The position numbers and the translations under genes are program-made. This document shows, piece after piece, positions 26,866-35,950 of a stretch of 64,000 nt of DNA (position 1 is the first letter of the stretch; the number at the start of each line of letters is the position of its first letter). The notes under the pieces are model-generated. The model saw nothing but the letters and a program-made list of their open reading frames with translations. It was not told where the DNA came from and did no database searches. This stretch comes from Kordiimonadales bacterium IMCC3096 (GTDB lineage Bacteria; Pseudomonadota; Alphaproteobacteria; Minwuiales; Minwuiaceae): the NCBI GenBank assembly GCA_016865035.1, contig CP018227.1:3501501-3565500 (forward strand), read 5' to 3'.

Positions 26866-27309
26866 ATGGCCAAGCGAAAGAATGTCGCCGGTGCAGCACC
26901 GGGGACGCGTCAGTTGCGTGTCGGTGAACTGATCCGCCACGCATTGTCCGAGATCCTTCAGCGGGACGAGATTCGCGATCCGGATGTGTCCGGGCGGTCG
27001 ATCACTGTCACCGAGGTCACGGTTTCGCCCGACATGCGCAACGCGACGGCCTATGTGGAGCCGCTCGGCGGCCTTGAAGTGGAGGCCGTACTTGCCGGTC
27101 TCAACCGCTCGGCGCCCTATCTGTCGGGACGCATTGCCCGGTCGGTGCACATGAAGTACGCGCCGCGCATTGCCTTCCACCGTGACCGGTCGTTCGACAA
27201 TGCCAGCCATATCGATGCCGTGATGCGGGCGGCGCGGGCCGACGACGAGCGGCGCCGGAAGGCGCAGGGGAACGGCGACGGCCCGGACGGCGCAGCCAAT
27301 GGGTCGTAG
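26866..27309 (+). CDS. rbfA: Ribosome-binding factor A
   Basis: 147 residues from ATG 26866 (MAKRKNVAG), with ACAGG upstream; a TTG at 26851 is possible. The KH-type fold is evident from RVGELIRHALSEIL and ITVTEVTVSPDMRNATAYVEPL. It is needed for 16S 5'-end maturation and cold adaptation. The C-terminal tail is basic, then Gly/Asn-rich, and its last 11 bases overlap truB. Confidence 0.93.
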   Translation: MAKRKNVAGAAPGTRQLRVGELIRHALSEILQRDEIRDPDVSGRSITVTEVTVSPDMRNATAYVEPLGGLEVEAVLAGLNRSAPYLSGRIARSVHMKYAPRIAFHRDRSFDNASHIDAVMRAARADDERRRKAQGNGDGPDGAANGS

Positions 27310-28204
27310 GCGGCGCGGCGACCCGGTCAGCGGCTGGCTGGTACTCGACAAGCCGGTCGGTCCGACCTCCACGACCGCCGTCAATCGCTGCCGCTGGTTG
27401 CTGAATGCACAGAAGGCGGGCCATGCCGGAACGCTCGATCCGCTGGCCAGCGGCATCCTGCCGATCGCGTTCGGCGAGGCGACGAAGTGCATCAACTTCC
27501 TGACCGATGCCACCAAGACCTATCGTTTCACGATCCGGTTCGGTACCTCCACGACCACGGATGACGGGGAGGGGGAGGTGCTGGCGGAAAGTGCGTCCCG
27601 CCCCGCAGCGGCTGACATCGCGGCGCTGCTTGACCGGTTCACCGGTGATATCCTGCAGGTGCCGCCCGCATTCTCCGCCATCAAGGTCGATGGCCAGCGC
27701 GCCTATGACCTGGCCCGTGACGGGCAGCCGCCGGAAATGAAGGCCAGGCCTGTTCAGGTGGAAAGCCTGACCCTGCTGGGCATGCCTGACGATGATCACG
27801 CGGAGCTGGAACTGGTCTGCGGCAAGGGCACCTATGTCCGGTCGCTCGCCCGTGACATCGGCTCCCTGCTTGGCATTCCTGCGCACGCCAGCGCCATCCG
27901 CCGGACGGCGGTCGGACGCTTTGTTGAATCCGGCTCAATTTCACTGGCAACGTTCGAGGGGCTGTGCCATAAGCGCAGCGGCCTTGAGGCCCTGAGACCT
28001 GTCGAGACCGCGCTGGACGACATCCCGGCACTGGCCGTGACAGGTGAGCAGGCTGACCGGATACGACATGGTCAGGCTGTCAGGGTGCTGAATTTCACGT
28101 ACCGCGATGATGAACTCATTTGCGCCATGCATGATCAACGGCCCGTGGCGCTGGCTCGATATCGGGCCGAATGGGTTGAGCCGGTTCGTGTCTTCAACCT
28201 CTGA
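27299..28204 (+). CDS. truB: tRNA pseudouridine-55 synthase
   Basis: 301 residues. GHAGTLDPLASGILPIAFGEATK (near 42-64) contains the catalytic aspartate. QVPPAFSAIKVDGQRAYDLARDG and GKGTYVRSLARDIG are further TruB motifs. It makes pseudouridine at position 55 of tRNAs. The ATG at 27299 lies 11 bases inside rbfA. Confidence 0.96.
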   Translation: MGRRRRGDPVSGWLVLDKPVGPTSTTAVNRCRWLLNAQKAGHAGTLDPLASGILPIAFGEATKCINFLTDATKTYRFTIRFGTSTTTDDGEGEVLAESASRPAAADIAALLDRFTGDILQVPPAFSAIKVDGQRAYDLARDGQPPEMKARPVQVESLTLLGMPDDDHAELELVCGKGTYVRSLARDIGSLLGIPAHASAIRRTAVGRFVESGSISLATFEGLCHKRSGLEALRPVETALDDIPALAVTGEQADRIRHGQAVRVLNFTYRDDELICAMHDQRPVALARYRAEWVEPVRVFNL

Positions 28205-28243
28205 CCGGGTTTCCCCCGGTCGATCCATTGATGGAGGAACATG

Positions 28244-28513
28244 ATGTCGATTACGCCCGAGCGCAAAGCCGAGCTTATCGCCGAGTATGGTCGTGGTGAA
28301 GGCGACACCGGATCGCCCGAGGTTCAGGTCGCAATCCTGACCCAGCGCATCCTGACCCTCACGGAGCACTTCAAGGCTCACAAGAAGGACAATCACTCCC
28401 GTCGCGGACTGCTGACCATGGTCAGCCAGCGCCGGCGGCTGCTTGATTATCTCAAGAACAAGGACGATGCCCGTTACCGGGAACTCATTTCACGACTCGG
28501 CCTGCGCCGGTGA
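28244..28513 (+). CDS. rpsO: 30S ribosomal protein S15
   Basis: 89 residues, the standard S15 length. Two adjacent ATGs occur at 28241 and 28244. The second is chosen because GGAGG (28233-28237) is then 6 bases away and the protein begins MSITPERK as in relatives. [12 protein letters not shown] and [12 protein letters not shown] are hallmark motifs that bind 16S rRNA helices 20-22. It lies upstream of pnp, as in most proteobacteria. Confidence 0.97.
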
Positions 28514-28521
28514 TCGTGACC

Positions 28522-28543
28522 GTCCGACCAATGGCGGTCGGAC
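28522..28543 (+). promoter_or_regulatory. First hairpin in rpsO-pnp spacer
   Basis: GTCCGACC (28522-28529) and GGTCGGAC (28536-28543) form a perfect 8-bp stem with loop AATGGC, nine bases after the rpsO stop. No T-run follows. In enterobacteria this spacer holds the rpsO terminator and an RNase III-cut stem that controls PNPase; this hairpin may be the counterpart. Confidence 0.65.
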
Positions 28544-28560
28544 AAGCGGGACAGGTTCAG

Positions 28561-28588
28561 GGCGGATCGGGCAGCGGCCCGGTTCGCC
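28561..28588 (+). promoter_or_regulatory. Second hairpin in rpsO-pnp spacer
   Basis: Bases 28561-28572 pair with 28577-28588 over all 12 positions (two G-U pairs) with loop AGCG. It lies 51 bases before the pnp ATG. It is a candidate RNase III / PNPase autoregulation stem. Confidence 0.65.
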
Positions 28589-28639
28589 TCCTGTCATTTG
28601 TGCGGCGGGATGGTCTGCTGCAGGAAGGTTGAGAAGAAG

Positions 28640-30817
28640 ATGTTTGATATACACCGCAAGGAAATCGACTGGGGCGGGCGCAAGCTCGTGCTGGAAACGG
28701 GCAAGATCGCCCGGCAGGCGACCGGTGCCGTCATGGCCACATATGGCGAGACGATGGTCCTCTGCACCGTCGTTGGCAGCAAGAGCGCCAAGGAAGGTCA
28801 GGACTTCTTTCCCCTGACCGTGAATTACCAGGAAAAGGCCTTTGCCGCAGGCAAGATCCCCGGCGGTTTCTTCAAGCGTGAGGCCCGCCCGTCGGACGCC
28901 GAGACGCTGACCTGCCGTCTGATCGACCGGCCGGTCCGCCCGCTGTTCGCGGAAGGTTTCAAGAATGACACGCAGATCATCTGCACGGTGCTGCAGCACG
29001 ACCTGGAAAACGATCCCGACATCGTTGCCCTGGTTGGTGCCTCCGCCGCGCTGACGATCTCCGGCCTGCCCTTCATGGGTCCGCTGGGTGCCTGCCGGGT
29101 CGGCTTTGCCAATGGCGAATATCTGCTCAACCCGACGCTGGAGCAAATGTCCGATTCCAAGCTGGATCTCGTCGTCGCCGGCACGCAGGACGCCGTGATG
29201 ATGGTGGAATCCGAAGCCGACGAGCTGTCGGAAGAGGAAATGCTGGGTGCGGTGACCTTCGGTCACAAGGCCTTCCAGACGGTGATCGATGGGATCATCG
29301 ATCTGGCCGAGACCGCGGCGAAGGAGCCGTGGGCCGAGCCGGCACCGCTCTATACCGAGGCTCTGGCCGCTCAGGTTGCCGACATTGCCCGCGCCGATCT
29401 GGCCGCCGCCTATGGCATCAAGGACAAGAAAGCTCGTCAGGACGCCGTCTCCGCCGCCAAGGCCAAGGTCATGGAAGCGCTCGGCGATCACGAGGAAGGC
29501 GGCATGGCCGTCGCCTCTGCCTTCAAGTCGCTGGAAAAGAACACGGTCCGTCGCTCCATCCTGGATACCGGGCTGCGCATCGACGGTCGCGACACGAAGA
29601 CCGTCCGGCCCATCGAGTGCGAGATCGGCGTCCTGCCGCGCGCCCATGGTTCGGCCCTGTTCACGCGTGGCGAGACCCAGGCGCTGGTGGTGACCACCCT
29701 CGGCACCGGTCAGGACGAGCAGATCATCGACGCGCTGGTGGGCGAGAGCCGTCAGCACTTCATGCTGCACTACAACTTCCCGCCGTACTCGGTTGGCGAG
29801 ACCAGCTTCCGCATGGGGCCGGGCCGTCGCGAGATCGGTCATGGCAAGCTGGCCTGGCGCGCGCTGCATCCGCTGATGCCTGCCAAGGACGAGTTCCCCT
29901 ACACGATCCGTATCGTGTCGGAAGTGACCGAGTCCAACGGTTCGTCCTCCATGGCAACGGTCTGCGGGTCGTCGCTGGCGATGATGGATGCCGGTGTGCC
30001 GCTGCGCCGTCCGGTTGCCGGTATCGCCATGGGTCTGATCCTGGAAGGCGACGAGTTCGCCGTCCTGTCCGACATCATCGGTGACGAGGATCATCTGGGC
30101 GACATGGACTTCAAGGTTGCGGGCACCGAGGCGGGTGTCACGTCGCTGCAGATGGACATCAAGATCGCCGGCATCACCGAGGAGATCATGAAGATCGCCC
30201 TGGCGCAGGCACATGAGGGTCGCAACCACATCCTCGGCAGGATGGCCACCGCCATCACGTCGGAGCGTGAGGAACTGCGCGATACCGCCCCGCGGATCAC
30301 GCTGATCAAGGTCCCGACCGACAAGATCCGCGATGTCATCGGTACCGGCGGCAAGGTGATCCGCGAGATCACGGAGCAGACCGGCTGCAAGATCGACATC
30401 GACGACGATGGTTCGATCAAGGTCGCCTCCTCCGACGGTGCCGCTGCCGAGAAGGCCATCAACTGGATCAAGTCGATCACGGCAGAGCCGGAAGTCGGCG
30501 CCATCTACAAGGGCAAGGTCGTCAAGACCATGGACTTTGGTGCCTTCATCAACTTCTTCGGCCCGCGCGACGGACTGGTGCACATCTCGGAGCTGCAGGA
30601 CGGCCGCACCGAGAAGGTGACCGATGTCGCCAACGAGGGTGATGAAGTCTGGGTCAAGCTGCTGGACGTGGATGATCGCGGCAAGGTTCGCCTGTCGATG
30701 CGCTACGTCAATCAGGAGACCGGCGAGGAGATCGAGGGCGTCGAGCCCCTGCCGCAGCGGGAACGTAGCGGTGGCGGTGGCCGTGGCGGAGACCGTCCGC
30801 GCCGTCGTCGCGACTGA
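28640..30817 (+). CDS. pnp: Polyribonucleotide nucleotidyltransferase (PNPase)
   Basis: 725 residues from ATG 28640 ([21 protein letters not shown]). Two RNase PH domains flank an alpha-helical linker; [22 protein letters not shown] and [23 protein letters not shown] are diagnostic. A KH domain ([15 protein letters not shown]) and an S1 domain ([18 protein letters not shown]) end the protein, with a Gly/Arg-rich tail. It degrades RNA 3' to 5' with phosphate, often in the degradosome. It is the last gene before a strong terminator. Confidence 0.97.
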
Positions 30818-30848
30818 TACGACCGGTCACTTTCAGACAGGTCCACGG

Positions 30849-30881
30849 AAAGGGGCCCCGGCAGATGCCGGGGCCCCTTTT
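30849..30881 (+). terminator. Strong intrinsic terminator after pnp
   Basis: A perfect 14-bp stem (30849-30862 with 30867-30880), loop AGAT, ends in TTTT. The A-rich 5' side gives partial function in both directions, so it may also serve the convergent DUF2254 gene. Confidence 0.9.
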
Positions 30882-30922
30882 CGTTCCGGCGGCATCCGTT
30901 TCACCGGGGCGTTGGAGGAGCT

Positions 30923-32203
30923 TCAGGAGAAGTTGGCTTCCGCCGTTTCGCGGACCCGCGCCCGTTCGCTGTCCAGCAGCAGGGCGTTCTCCGCCCGCTC
31001 CAGGGCCATGCGCGAGTGCCGCAGGGCCTGCTTCCGCATTTCCTGATGCCCAGTGGCGTAGAGGGCTCCCAGGCCGTTCTGCAGTGCGATATGCACGTCC
31101 ACATGGGGGGCGCCGTCGCGGGCGAGGGGGGTGAAGAGGTCGTCGAACAGGTCGGGCAGCAGCAGGGGCGGCACCCAGATCCTCGGGAAACGCAGTTCCT
31201 GCCTGTCCTTGTCCTGCTCTCGCTGGCTCCACAGCAGCAGCAGCCGCACGGCGCGGGCCAGCACGTCCTTGGCGGTGCCGGAATCGTTCACCGCCGGTGA
31301 CAGCGCGCGGGAGGCGATTTCCGACAGCACCACGAGGCCGAAGCGCGGATCCTGGTCGAAGGACCGGTCGCGACCGATGCGGAAGGCGGGGGCCAGGTCC
31401 TGCGGGTCGAAACCGTCCGGAAAACCGCTCAGCCAGGCCACGTCCATTGCCGGATGGATGAACTGTCCCGGCAGCACCGTCACGAAGATCTCGCCGCCGG
31501 CGCTCTCCGCATGATCCGACAGCTGGTCGACGGCCAGGTGCTGCAGGTAGCCGATGGTCGGCACGTTGAGAGGCACGGCATCATCGGGGACCGCGGTGCT
31601 CTCCTCATCGAGGATCCGCCCGCCCAGCGCCGGATCCTCGACCCGGCCGCAGATGGCGGCGAAGGCCGCATGCTCGACGCGGTCCGTGGTGTCGCTGACC
31701 CGACCAAGCCGCGAGAGGTGCTCGATCCAGCGGAACAGGGTCATGACCATCAGCAGGATGACGGCCACGGTCACCGCCAGCACGGCGACCTGCCCGGCAT
31801 CGCCGTAGAAGCCGGTGTTCAGCGCCACGATGCCCACCAGCGAGAAGACGAAGGTGCCGATGAAGGTCGCAAGGACGTTCTGGGTCGTCGTGTCCTGCAT
31901 CAGCAGCGCCGTGGCCCTGGGTGTCACGCTGGTGGCCGCCGCCGAATAGGCCGAGACCATCACGCTGAGGGAGAATGTGGTCACCGCCAGCATGCTGGAG
32001 GCAAGGATGTGCAGGATGTCCTCCACCGCGCCCGCACCGACCCTGCGCGACAGCTCCGGCGGCACCAGCGGATCCAGATAGGTCGCAACGAGTGCCGTGA
32101 TCACTGCCAGCAGGCAGAACAGCGCGACGCGTATCCAGAGGGTCCTGGAAAGCTGGAGCATCAGCCATTGCCACTTGGAAATCATCGTCACTGTTCCCGC
32201 CAT
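30923..32203 (-). CDS. DUF2254 membrane protein
   Basis: 426 residues. Four hydrophobic segments occupy the first 165 residues (about 24-44, 65-85, 105-130 and 135-155). A soluble C-terminal region contains HPAMDVAWL and the conserved segment RDRSFDQDPRFGLVVLSEIASRALSPAVND, which identifies DUF2254. Function is unknown. A second possible start is the ATG at 32185. The gene begins two bases from the decayed SDR gene, so its original promoter region may have been replaced. Confidence 0.85.
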   Translation of the reverse strand: MAGTVTMISKWQWLMLQLSRTLWIRVALFCLLAVITALVATYLDPLVPPELSRRVGAGAVEDILHILASSMLAVTTFSLSVMVSAYSAAATSVTPRATALLMQDTTTQNVLATFIGTFVFSLVGIVALNTGFYGDAGQVAVLAVTVAVILLMVMTLFRWIEHLSRLGRVSDTTDRVEHAAFAAICGRVEDPALGGRILDEESTAVPDDAVPLNVPTIGYLQHLAVDQLSDHAESAGGEIFVTVLPGQFIHPAMDVAWLSGFPDGFDPQDLAPAFRIGRDRSFDQDPRFGLVVLSEIASRALSPAVNDSGTAKDVLARAVRLLLLWSQREQDKDRQELRFPRIWVPPLLLPDLFDDLFTPLARDGAPHVDVHIALQNGLGALYATGHQEMRKQALRHSRMALERAENALLLDSERARVRETAEANFS

Positions 32204-34429: not shown

Positions 34430-35950
34430 TGCCAGATTTTGGGCGCACTGATGGCGCGAGCTTCCTCGTTCACTGATGAACTGGCCGTCATGCCGGAGCA
34501 GGCTTTGGTCTGAGGCGGTCGATGCGGCGTAGTATGTCGGCAAACAGGGCTCGGGGAATGGCGACCTCCGCCATCTGGAAGGTAACGTAGCGCCCGTGGC
34601 GGACAATCTTCGCGCCGATTTTGATCAACCTGTCTCTGAGCGTCGTCATCGACCACTGCTGCACGGCATCAGGCAGCGCCAGTGTGCGTAGGAAGTTGCC
34701 GAGATTGTAGGCGAGCGCATGCAACTGCAGCCGCACGGCGTTGTGGGCGAACTTGCGGCAGGAGAGACGCGTCCACCGGATGGCGTTCTTGCCTTCTTTG
34801 ATATGCTGCTCTGCCGTGCCGCGTTGATTGTAGAAGGCGACGACACGCTCGGCAGGGCGGGCGAGGTTGGTCACTATGAACCCGACCCGGGGATAGAGTT
34901 CGCCTGGATGCCACTCGACCTTGGCGACGACGCGGCGAGCCTTGCTCCAACTGGCGGCCTTGTAGCTGAAGTTTGCGTAGTAGCGGCGCACGTCCTTCGG
35001 CGGTCGACCAACCGGGCGCTTCAGGAGGTGGGCGATATTGCCCTGCAGAATGGTGTTCGCCGGCAGTCGGATCGCATAGCCAAAGCCCTCGGCTTCGAGG
35101 AACTCATAGACGCCAGGCAGAGCGAAGGCCGCGTCGCCTCGGAAGAAGCGCCGCAGTCGCTTGTCCCGGTAGCGGGCGACGACTGGCTCCAAGACATTGC
35201 GCCAGTCATGGGCGCTGTGGACGTTGCCGGACCGAAGTGCACAGCGTTCGAGATCGCCGAACTGGTTAAACACGAACAGTGGGTGATAGCAGCTACGGCC
35301 AAAGTGGCCGTTGTAGGCCGTGCCTTCCTGCGCGCCGTGGGTTGGGCTGACGGAGCTATCCATATCCAGAACGATGGTCTTCAACGGCTTGTGCCGATGA
35401 ACCGTGTTGATCCATGCGCCTGACAAATCAGCGAGGGCGGCGAGATTATCGGTCATCGAAAGCAACTCGGTCTCAAACCGGCCCATCTGGCTGGTTGATG
35501 CGCCGCCACGTTCGATAGCCTTACCGCCGACGATCCAACGCATCGCAGGATCACGCCCCAGCCGGTCGGCGTCATTCACATCCTCATAGCCCGCAAGGCG
35601 TCCATAGACAGACTGGCGCAACAGTCCGGCAAGACTATGCCAGCCATTCTTGCCCGTGCGGTTATCCGCGAGTACGCCGGCCGCCGTATCGGTCAGGCCA
35701 AGCGCATCGTCGAGGTCGCGATAGGCCAGCAACCCAGCATCGGATGTGATCCGCGAACCATGGAACTCAAGCTTCAGCCGACGATCAAAACCAAGGCCTA
35801 GAGGCGATCTATCGGCTTCACCCTCTGGATTCTGCATCACAGCGGCCCCTAAATCCATTTAACACACTGAATACTATACAAAAACCATGGTCAGTGGGAG
35901 CGAAATAGACCATTCACCTGGGAAATGCGGGTCAATAGGCAAATGAGGGA
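34430..35950 (-). mobile_element. IS1380-family insertion sequence (ends approximate)
   Basis: The element is defined by its intact transposase. Exact ends could not be fixed. TTTGCC reads inward near both candidate ends (about 34427 on plus and 35945 on minus), but similarity beyond six bases is weak, and I could not identify the target duplication. The expected length for this family is about 1.6-1.7 kb. It separates the DUF1330-like fragment from ftsB. Confidence 0.55.
34488..35858 (-). CDS. IS1380 family transposase
   Basis: 456 residues. The N-terminus LEFHGSRITSDAGLLAYRDLDDALGLT and the central VLDMDSSVSPTHGAQEGTAYNGHFG carry the first DDE aspartate. RRFFRGDAAFALPGVYEFLE carries the second. 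NQRGTAEQHIKEGKNAIRW is the Y-region with the catalytic glutamate. These motifs are typical of IS1380. It appears full length, so the element may still be active. Base use is less GC-rich than in the core genes on either side. Confidence 0.95.
   Translation of the reverse strand: MDLGAAVMQNPEGEADRSPLGLGFDRRLKLEFHGSRITSDAGLLAYRDLDDALGLTDTAAGVLADNRTGKNGWHSLAGLLRQSVYGRLAGYEDVNDADRLGRDPAMRWIVGGKAIERGGASTSQMGRFETELLSMTDNLAALADLSGAWINTVHRHKPLKTIVLDMDSSVSPTHGAQEGTAYNGHFGRSCYHPLFVFNQFGDLERCALRSGNVHSAHDWRNVLEPVVARYRDKRLRRFFRGDAAFALPGVYEFLEAEGFGYAIRLPANTILQGNIAHLLKRPVGRPPKDVRRYYANFSYKAASWSKARRVVAKVEWHPGELYPRVGFIVTNLARPAERVVAFYNQRGTAEQHIKEGKNAIRWTRLSCRKFAHNAVRLQLHALAYNLGNFLRTLALPDAVQQWSMTTLRDRLIKIGAKIVRHGRYVTFQMAEVAIPRALFADILRRIDRLRPKPAPA

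Follow-up and report, generated by a model that had tools for sequence, protein, structure and literature searches.

The feedback control of polynucleotide phosphorylase (PNPase) in E. coli is a classic example and is understood there in detail. Is the short spacer between rpsO and pnp in a Minwuia genome a control segment of the same kind and, if so, from what RNA parts is it built? The genome that carries the window, as the whole stretch of 64,000 nucleotides analysed is called here, is of 4.29 Mb in one contig and belongs to Minwuia, order Minwuiales, class Alphaproteobacteria; its PNPase is 96-98% identical to that of Minwuia thermotolerans and Minwuia sp. A sequence-only reading of this DNA had proposed that two perfect stems fill a 126-base spacer in a conserved gene order, and that they are probably an independent version of the enterobacterial control in which RNase III cuts a stem ahead of pnp and PNPase then degrades its own leader. 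The gene order is indeed that of E. coli K-12 and the spacer length was correctly given, rpsO ending at 28513 and pnp starting with the ATG at 28640. Like these two genes, truB was named by NCBIfam; genes upstream are presumably nusA, infB and rbfA. The features that matter for the argument are these:

28241-28513, forward strand: rpsO, 30S ribosomal protein S15, the upstream gene (TIGR00952, 133.9 bits)
28514-28639, forward strand: rpsO-pnp spacer, 126 bases, three hairpins (z -5.8, 0 of 300 shuffles; single full-length copy in the genome)
28522-28543, forward strand: H1, 8-bp stem with a 6-nt loop (this geometry recurs in all 7 Minwuia-genus genomes examined, and elsewhere in 9 of 93 spacers)
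28550-28595, forward strand: H2, inner 12-bp stem (28561-28588) with a tetraloop, set off by a one-sided internal loop from the outer helix 28550-28554/28591-28595
28601-28622, forward strand: H3, 9-bp stem with a 4-nt loop (its geometry likewise in all 7 of those genomes, and in none of the 93 spacers from elsewhere)
28623-28628, forward strand: GGAAGG, likely ribosome-binding site of pnp, so named from its sequence and position
28640-30817, forward strand: pnp, polynucleotide phosphorylase (TIGR03591, 1062 bits; ATG at 28640)

Over the start of rpsO (28198-28300, forward strand) the Rfam S15 leader, RF00114, gives a match below its threshold (22.3 of 39.5 bits, E 0.007), for which the S15 regulator of Alphaproteobacteria, going by part of PMC4137082, may be a more suitable comparison than RF00114. 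Right after pnp, on the opposite strand, a 426-aa open frame (30923-32203) has no NCBIfam match, and an IS1380-family transposase (34488-35858, reverse strand; NF033539, 394.7 bits) follows a few kb downstream of pnp.

Three hairpins and their stability

H1 starts 8 nt past the rpsO stop; its arms, GTCCGACC and GGTCGGAC, form the eight Watson-Crick pairs that had been ascribed to them, and AAGCGGG, without a U-tract, follows. The inner stem of H2 has its 12 pairs and a 4-nt loop, and since two of the pairs are G-U, the description 'perfect' is valid only if wobbles are counted. Across a one-sided internal loop, five further pairs join 28550-28554 to 28591-28595, giving H2 a total of 17-19 pairs (12-13 plus 5-6) with a one-sided loop or bulge. 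The two stems taken to fill the spacer thus both exist, but the outer helix of H2 and the whole of H3 had been missed. The base of H3 can be extended by three pairs (28597-28599 with 28624-28626) into GGAAGG, and in five Minwuia genomes UUU is able to pair with the GAA of that motif.

Does the spacer fold beyond what chance provides? It does. The fold z-score is -5.34 for a 171-nt stretch (none of 200 shuffles equally stable) and -5.8 for the 126-nt spacer (none of 300); 508 windows of the spacer's length were sampled across the 64 kb, on either strand, and while one equals the spacer in energy, not one attains its z, the nearest (-5.71) overlapping it. Taken singly, the H2 stretch (28545-28600) has z -5.2, with none of 300 shuffles equally stable, the H3 stretch -3.3 (2 of 300) and the H1 stretch -2.8 (7 of 300). 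An opposite-strand window from 28477 has z -2.9, which makes the pnp strand the more strongly folded of the two. The length of the longest arm was also tried as a test of H2 and discarded: its 19 pairs were matched in length by 11 of 20 shuffles, the measure being uninformative in GC-rich sequence.

Conservation within Minwuia

The sequence-only reading hinged on the hairpins recurring in close relatives, and there they are conserved. In the close set of five Minwuia genomes (G000, the one carrying the window, with G001, G002, G004 and G005), all 185 pair cells of the 37 pairs are intact, the G000 row pairing by construction as the structure was derived from it, whereas only 36-50% pair when partners are slid by 1-3 columns. 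The covariation that it had proposed as a check is there in one sense and not in another. The formal score across the five genomes falls short of significance, being equalled by 181 of 500 shuffles, because with a mean column identity of 95% there is little divergence. The base changes nonetheless avoid breaking pairs. Relative to G000 there are 25, of which eight fall in paired columns and one would break a pair if alone, whereas random re-placement of 25 changes on the same bases puts 15.1 in pairs and breaks 9.65, with a minimum of two broken in 20,000 trials. That sole potentially pair-breaking change is one half of a double change, from G-C to A-U, in H3, the only hairpin to hold one; H1 and H2 are less variable than H3 in the five genomes. 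The pairing of the hairpins is preserved across the genus.

All nine Minwuiales genomes examined have rpsO. Two more of the same genus, G003 and G006, again have three hairpins, in a spacer of different sequence that is not alignable by eye. There H1 has 7 bp and a 6-nt loop, H2 is long and bulged and closes on a loop of 4 nt, and H3, also of 7 bp and with a 4-nt loop, stands immediately before the ribosome-binding site, which the predicted fold leaves outside H3. Their whole-spacer z-scores are only -2.6 (6 of 400 shuffles) and -2.1 (11 of 400). By criteria fixed after inspection of G000 and G006, the joint geometry of H1 and H3 is found in all seven genomes of the genus that were examined; shuffles yield it in 0 of 5000 for each of G003 and G006 and in 2 of 5000 for each of G000 and G002. 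In the other 93 spacers the H3 geometry occurs in none and that of H1 in nine. The other two genera of the family are without the H1 and H3 layout: in one (G007) a small hairpin and a canonical U-tract rpsO terminator are followed by a 21-pair stem before pnp (L036/L007), and the other (G008) has an unremarkable spacer with z -1.2.

Folded rpsO-pnp spacers in Alphaproteobacteria

How unusual is a folded spacer at this place? Of 110 loci from the class, counted without L001, which duplicates L002, there were 108 with rpsO then pnp on one strand, L018 and L110 being those that did not; six identical duplicates and two spacers of more than 700 bases (L072, L086) were dropped, and the 100 left include no identical pair but ten pairs more than 0.9 alike, so that they are not all independent. 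Their median z is -3.4. A z of -4 or lower is reached by 39 of the 100. Among controls of equal length, which are coding rather than intergenic, 2 of 100 stretches of pnp and 3 of 98 of truB reach it; the z-scores of the controls rest on 12 shuffles, those of the survey on 20. Arms of at least 40 pairs occur in 15 spacers, against three pnp-coding and two truB-coding stretches. A hairpin begins within 45 nt of the rpsO stop in 50 of the 100, in 14 of them with a T-rich tail, G007 being among these. By these figures a folded rpsO-pnp spacer is common in the class, and that of Minwuia is a compact version.

A pnp-leader RNA of Hyphomicrobiales

The survey also brought out 15 loci that share a stem of near-fixed sequence before pnp. 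Their titles are Bosea, Pannonibacter, Xanthobacteraceae, Phyllobacteriaceae, Pinisolibacter, Pseudolabrys, Hyphomicrobiales or Rhizobiales, all of which we take to belong to Hyphomicrobiales. One arm of at least 25 pairs has the near-invariant strands CCATGGCAGGATCGCC and GCCGTCTTG, and RNAalifold gives 27 pairs, 11 of them with double changes. The covariance model R1 matches 90 of 199 genomes of one order, that of G196 and presumably Hyphomicrobiales, at E <= 0.001 (89 once, one twice), and 8 of 385 class-wide at E <= 0.01. Thirty of the 90 order-level matches were fetched for placement; in 31 of the 36 loci fetched in all, the match has rpsO on one side and pnp on the other and is on the strand of pnp, and the remaining five are weak class-wide matches with neither gene nearby. 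Over the 43 sequences that are distinct, pairing holds in 96.4% of 1154 cells and double changes are seen in 15 pairs. Their covariation score of 0.382 compares with 0.155 for shuffles, none of 500 attaining it, and with no more than 0.108 after sliding; the alignment, A5, had been fitted to the R1 structure and so leans towards it. Example rows among the 45 of A5 are L088:2377-2462, L049:414-507 and L122:1501-1581. The Hyphomicrobiales element is a stronger result than the Minwuia finding.

Seven loci that carry the element had no match over threshold in Rfam 15, and in four loci no match was found at the element up to E 1. A published description of it was absent from the matches listed and, by term search, from the portions of PMC2245857 and PMC1273637 covered; the portion of PMC2864571 covered flags no alphaproteobacterial pnp motif. 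The element is apparently undescribed so far. A leader peptide within its stem (ATG GCA GGA TCG) was considered and rejected: in the 44 of 45 rows with the pattern (L148, lacking it, was dropped), open-frame lengths scatter from 9 to 200 codons, 200 being the ceiling, and a Shine-Dalgarno-like 4-mer occurs in 11 of 44.

Does Minwuia have the same leader? The two have in common the spacer, the class, a hairpin ahead of pnp and the 5'-arm hexamer GGATCG, which, with a GACAG/CTGTC outer helix present also in Pannonibacter, suggested membership; the models fail to bear it out, the Minwuia spacer scoring 6.0 bits with R1 and 4.8 with R2, a second model of the Hyphomicrobiales leader, below three other places in 701 bases. 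It matches neither, so the models lend no support to homology of the two leaders.

Separately, in seven loci (L051, L054, L059, L060, L063, L065, L084) the rpsO-pnp spacer holds arms of 36-49 pairs that are not matched by R2. Several of these loci are titled Acetobacteraceae or Rhodopila, so they may carry yet another leader specific to a lineage.

Comparison with known pnp leaders

The E. coli rpsO-pnp leader has the gene order and spacer position of Minwuia, and a strong hairpin between the terminator position and the start of pnp. By the same script the K-12 spacer has z -6.1 and a 37-pair arm that none of 20 shuffles matches; it is 246 bases long against 126 in Minwuia. CsrA acts on the E. 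coli pnp leader; no CsrA gene was found in the Minwuia genome. The E. coli leader is an RNase III site with PNPase autocontrol, whereas that of Minwuia is known from its sequence and predicted fold. Besides that one 37-pair arm, in contrast to the three short hairpins of Minwuia, the E. coli spacer contains a terminator with a U-tract and an internal promoter for pnp, according to part of PMC5872136. The same part describes a hairpin in the rpsO-pnp spacer of Streptomyces coelicolor that is cut by RNase III, though that organism is of another phylum and has two promoters in the spacer. Actino-pnp RNA (RF01688) of Actinomycetales is likewise a structured RNA upstream of pnp that was found by comparison (PMC2864571, in part). 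No Rfam family exceeds its gathering score in the window; up to E 10 in 28100-28760 there are only sub-threshold matches to other families, Actino-pnp not among them, and the two that touch the spacer, C4 (19.8 of 45 bits) and narK (13.7 of 43.2 bits), were taken as chance.

The Minwuia leader may or may not be independent of the enterobacterial version, as had been supposed: folded rpsO-pnp spacers are common in the sampled Alphaproteobacteria, while the Minwuia sequence is unalignable by eye even to two members of its own genus.

Cleavage, termination or translational control?

What would such a spacer do? That it serves, as a conserved segment, in post-transcriptional control of one messenger carrying both rpsO and pnp has, in our judgement, an even chance of being right, and all beyond the conserved fold we infer. 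The two genes would share one transcript. H2, the longest helix, would be cut by a nuclease, most likely RNase III, whereupon H1 would cap the 3' end of the rpsO half, and with this protection S15 mRNA would outlive pnp mRNA. H3, against the ribosome-binding site, would govern translation or decay of the pnp half, and PNPase would remove the cut strand, as in E. coli, and so limit its own synthesis. Taken jointly, co-transcription, cutting of H2 and protection by H1 seem to us evenly poised; RNase III in particular as the nuclease is a tentative choice, and autocontrol by PNPase is rather doubtful. RNase III is encoded in the genome (PF14622 over the cut-off, G000:C1:215009-215386). A promoter scan of 27000-31500 found no sigma-70-like promoter (0.6 expected), in weak agreement with co-transcription. 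By the measure of the minimal helix lengths of RNase III, H1 is short and H2 modest.

According to part of PMC8708148, RNase III represses PNPase in E. coli, B. burgdorferi, S. coelicolor, S. pyogenes and C. jejuni. Is it always RNase III that counts? In Rhodobacter sphaeroides, according to part of PMC7866481, pnp mRNA answers to RNase E and not to RNase III, its level being unchanged in an RNase III mutant and rising more than twofold at 42 C when RNase E was mutated. In Minwuia, RNase E could similarly cut single-stranded gaps, with the hairpins as exonuclease barriers and a 5'-end stabiliser and with no RNase III/PNPase feedback. We regard this as unlikely, though the shortness of H1 and H3 would suit it, as would the gap AUUUGUG between H2 and H3, which is invariant in the five genomes but is partly taken up by the H3 extension.

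A less probable reading still has H2 (or H1) reduce pnp relative to rpsO by weak intrinsic termination or attenuation, as what is left of the rpsO terminator found elsewhere. E. coli has a terminator at that place (PMC5872136, in part), and the T-rich tails of the 14 surveyed spacers, that of the same-family G007 included, are in keeping with such a remnant. H2 is listed as terminator-like by a loose pattern scan, and a second loose rule flags it in G000, G001 and G002; it fails that rule in G004 and G005, however, the scan of 27000-31500 gives two sites against 2.5 in shuffles, and neither H1 (AAGCGGG) nor H2 (CCTGTCATTT) is followed by a contiguous U-run. That H3 alone counts, as a lid on the pnp ribosome-binding site for translation control with the remainder filler, is very improbable: H3 adjoins GGAAGG in the genus, has the only double change, and is flanked by the UUU able to pair with GAA in the five genomes, but H1 and H2 vary less than it does and the predicted fold of G003 and G006 puts the ribosome-binding site outside it. 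A dispersed, REP-like hairpin repeat was rejected, there being one full-length spacer copy in the genome and a next best match of 24 bases (E 0.01).

For control by RNase III and PNPase, as the sequence-only reading had it, place, fold, conservation and an encoded RNase III fit; the short H1, the shuffle-like length of H2 and the R. sphaeroides result do not. Overall that interpretation is partly supported.

A proposed control of pnp by lineage-specific leaders

The Minwuia leader is a conserved structured pnp leader, and its spacer a variant, specific to this lineage, of a type of control region already known; RNase III cutting and PNPase feedback in Minwuia are plausible. The sequence of the Hyphomicrobiales helix is near-invariant beyond the needs of pairing, which points to a specific protein and not only to a generic double-stranded cut site, candidates being PNPase, RNase III or another. 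With some reserve, we put forward that Alphaproteobacteria control pnp by lineage-specific operator RNAs in the rpsO-pnp spacer, the Hyphomicrobiales element and the three-hairpin form of Minwuia among them, and that the Hyphomicrobiales helix would be read by a specific protein. The Hyphomicrobiales element is a defined RNA, with consensus and covariation, on which pnp control can be tested. Should it share its function with the Minwuia hairpins, this control would be built from different RNA parts in different lineages, and the lack of effect of the RNase III mutation in R. sphaeroides would turn into a question to be put genus by genus.
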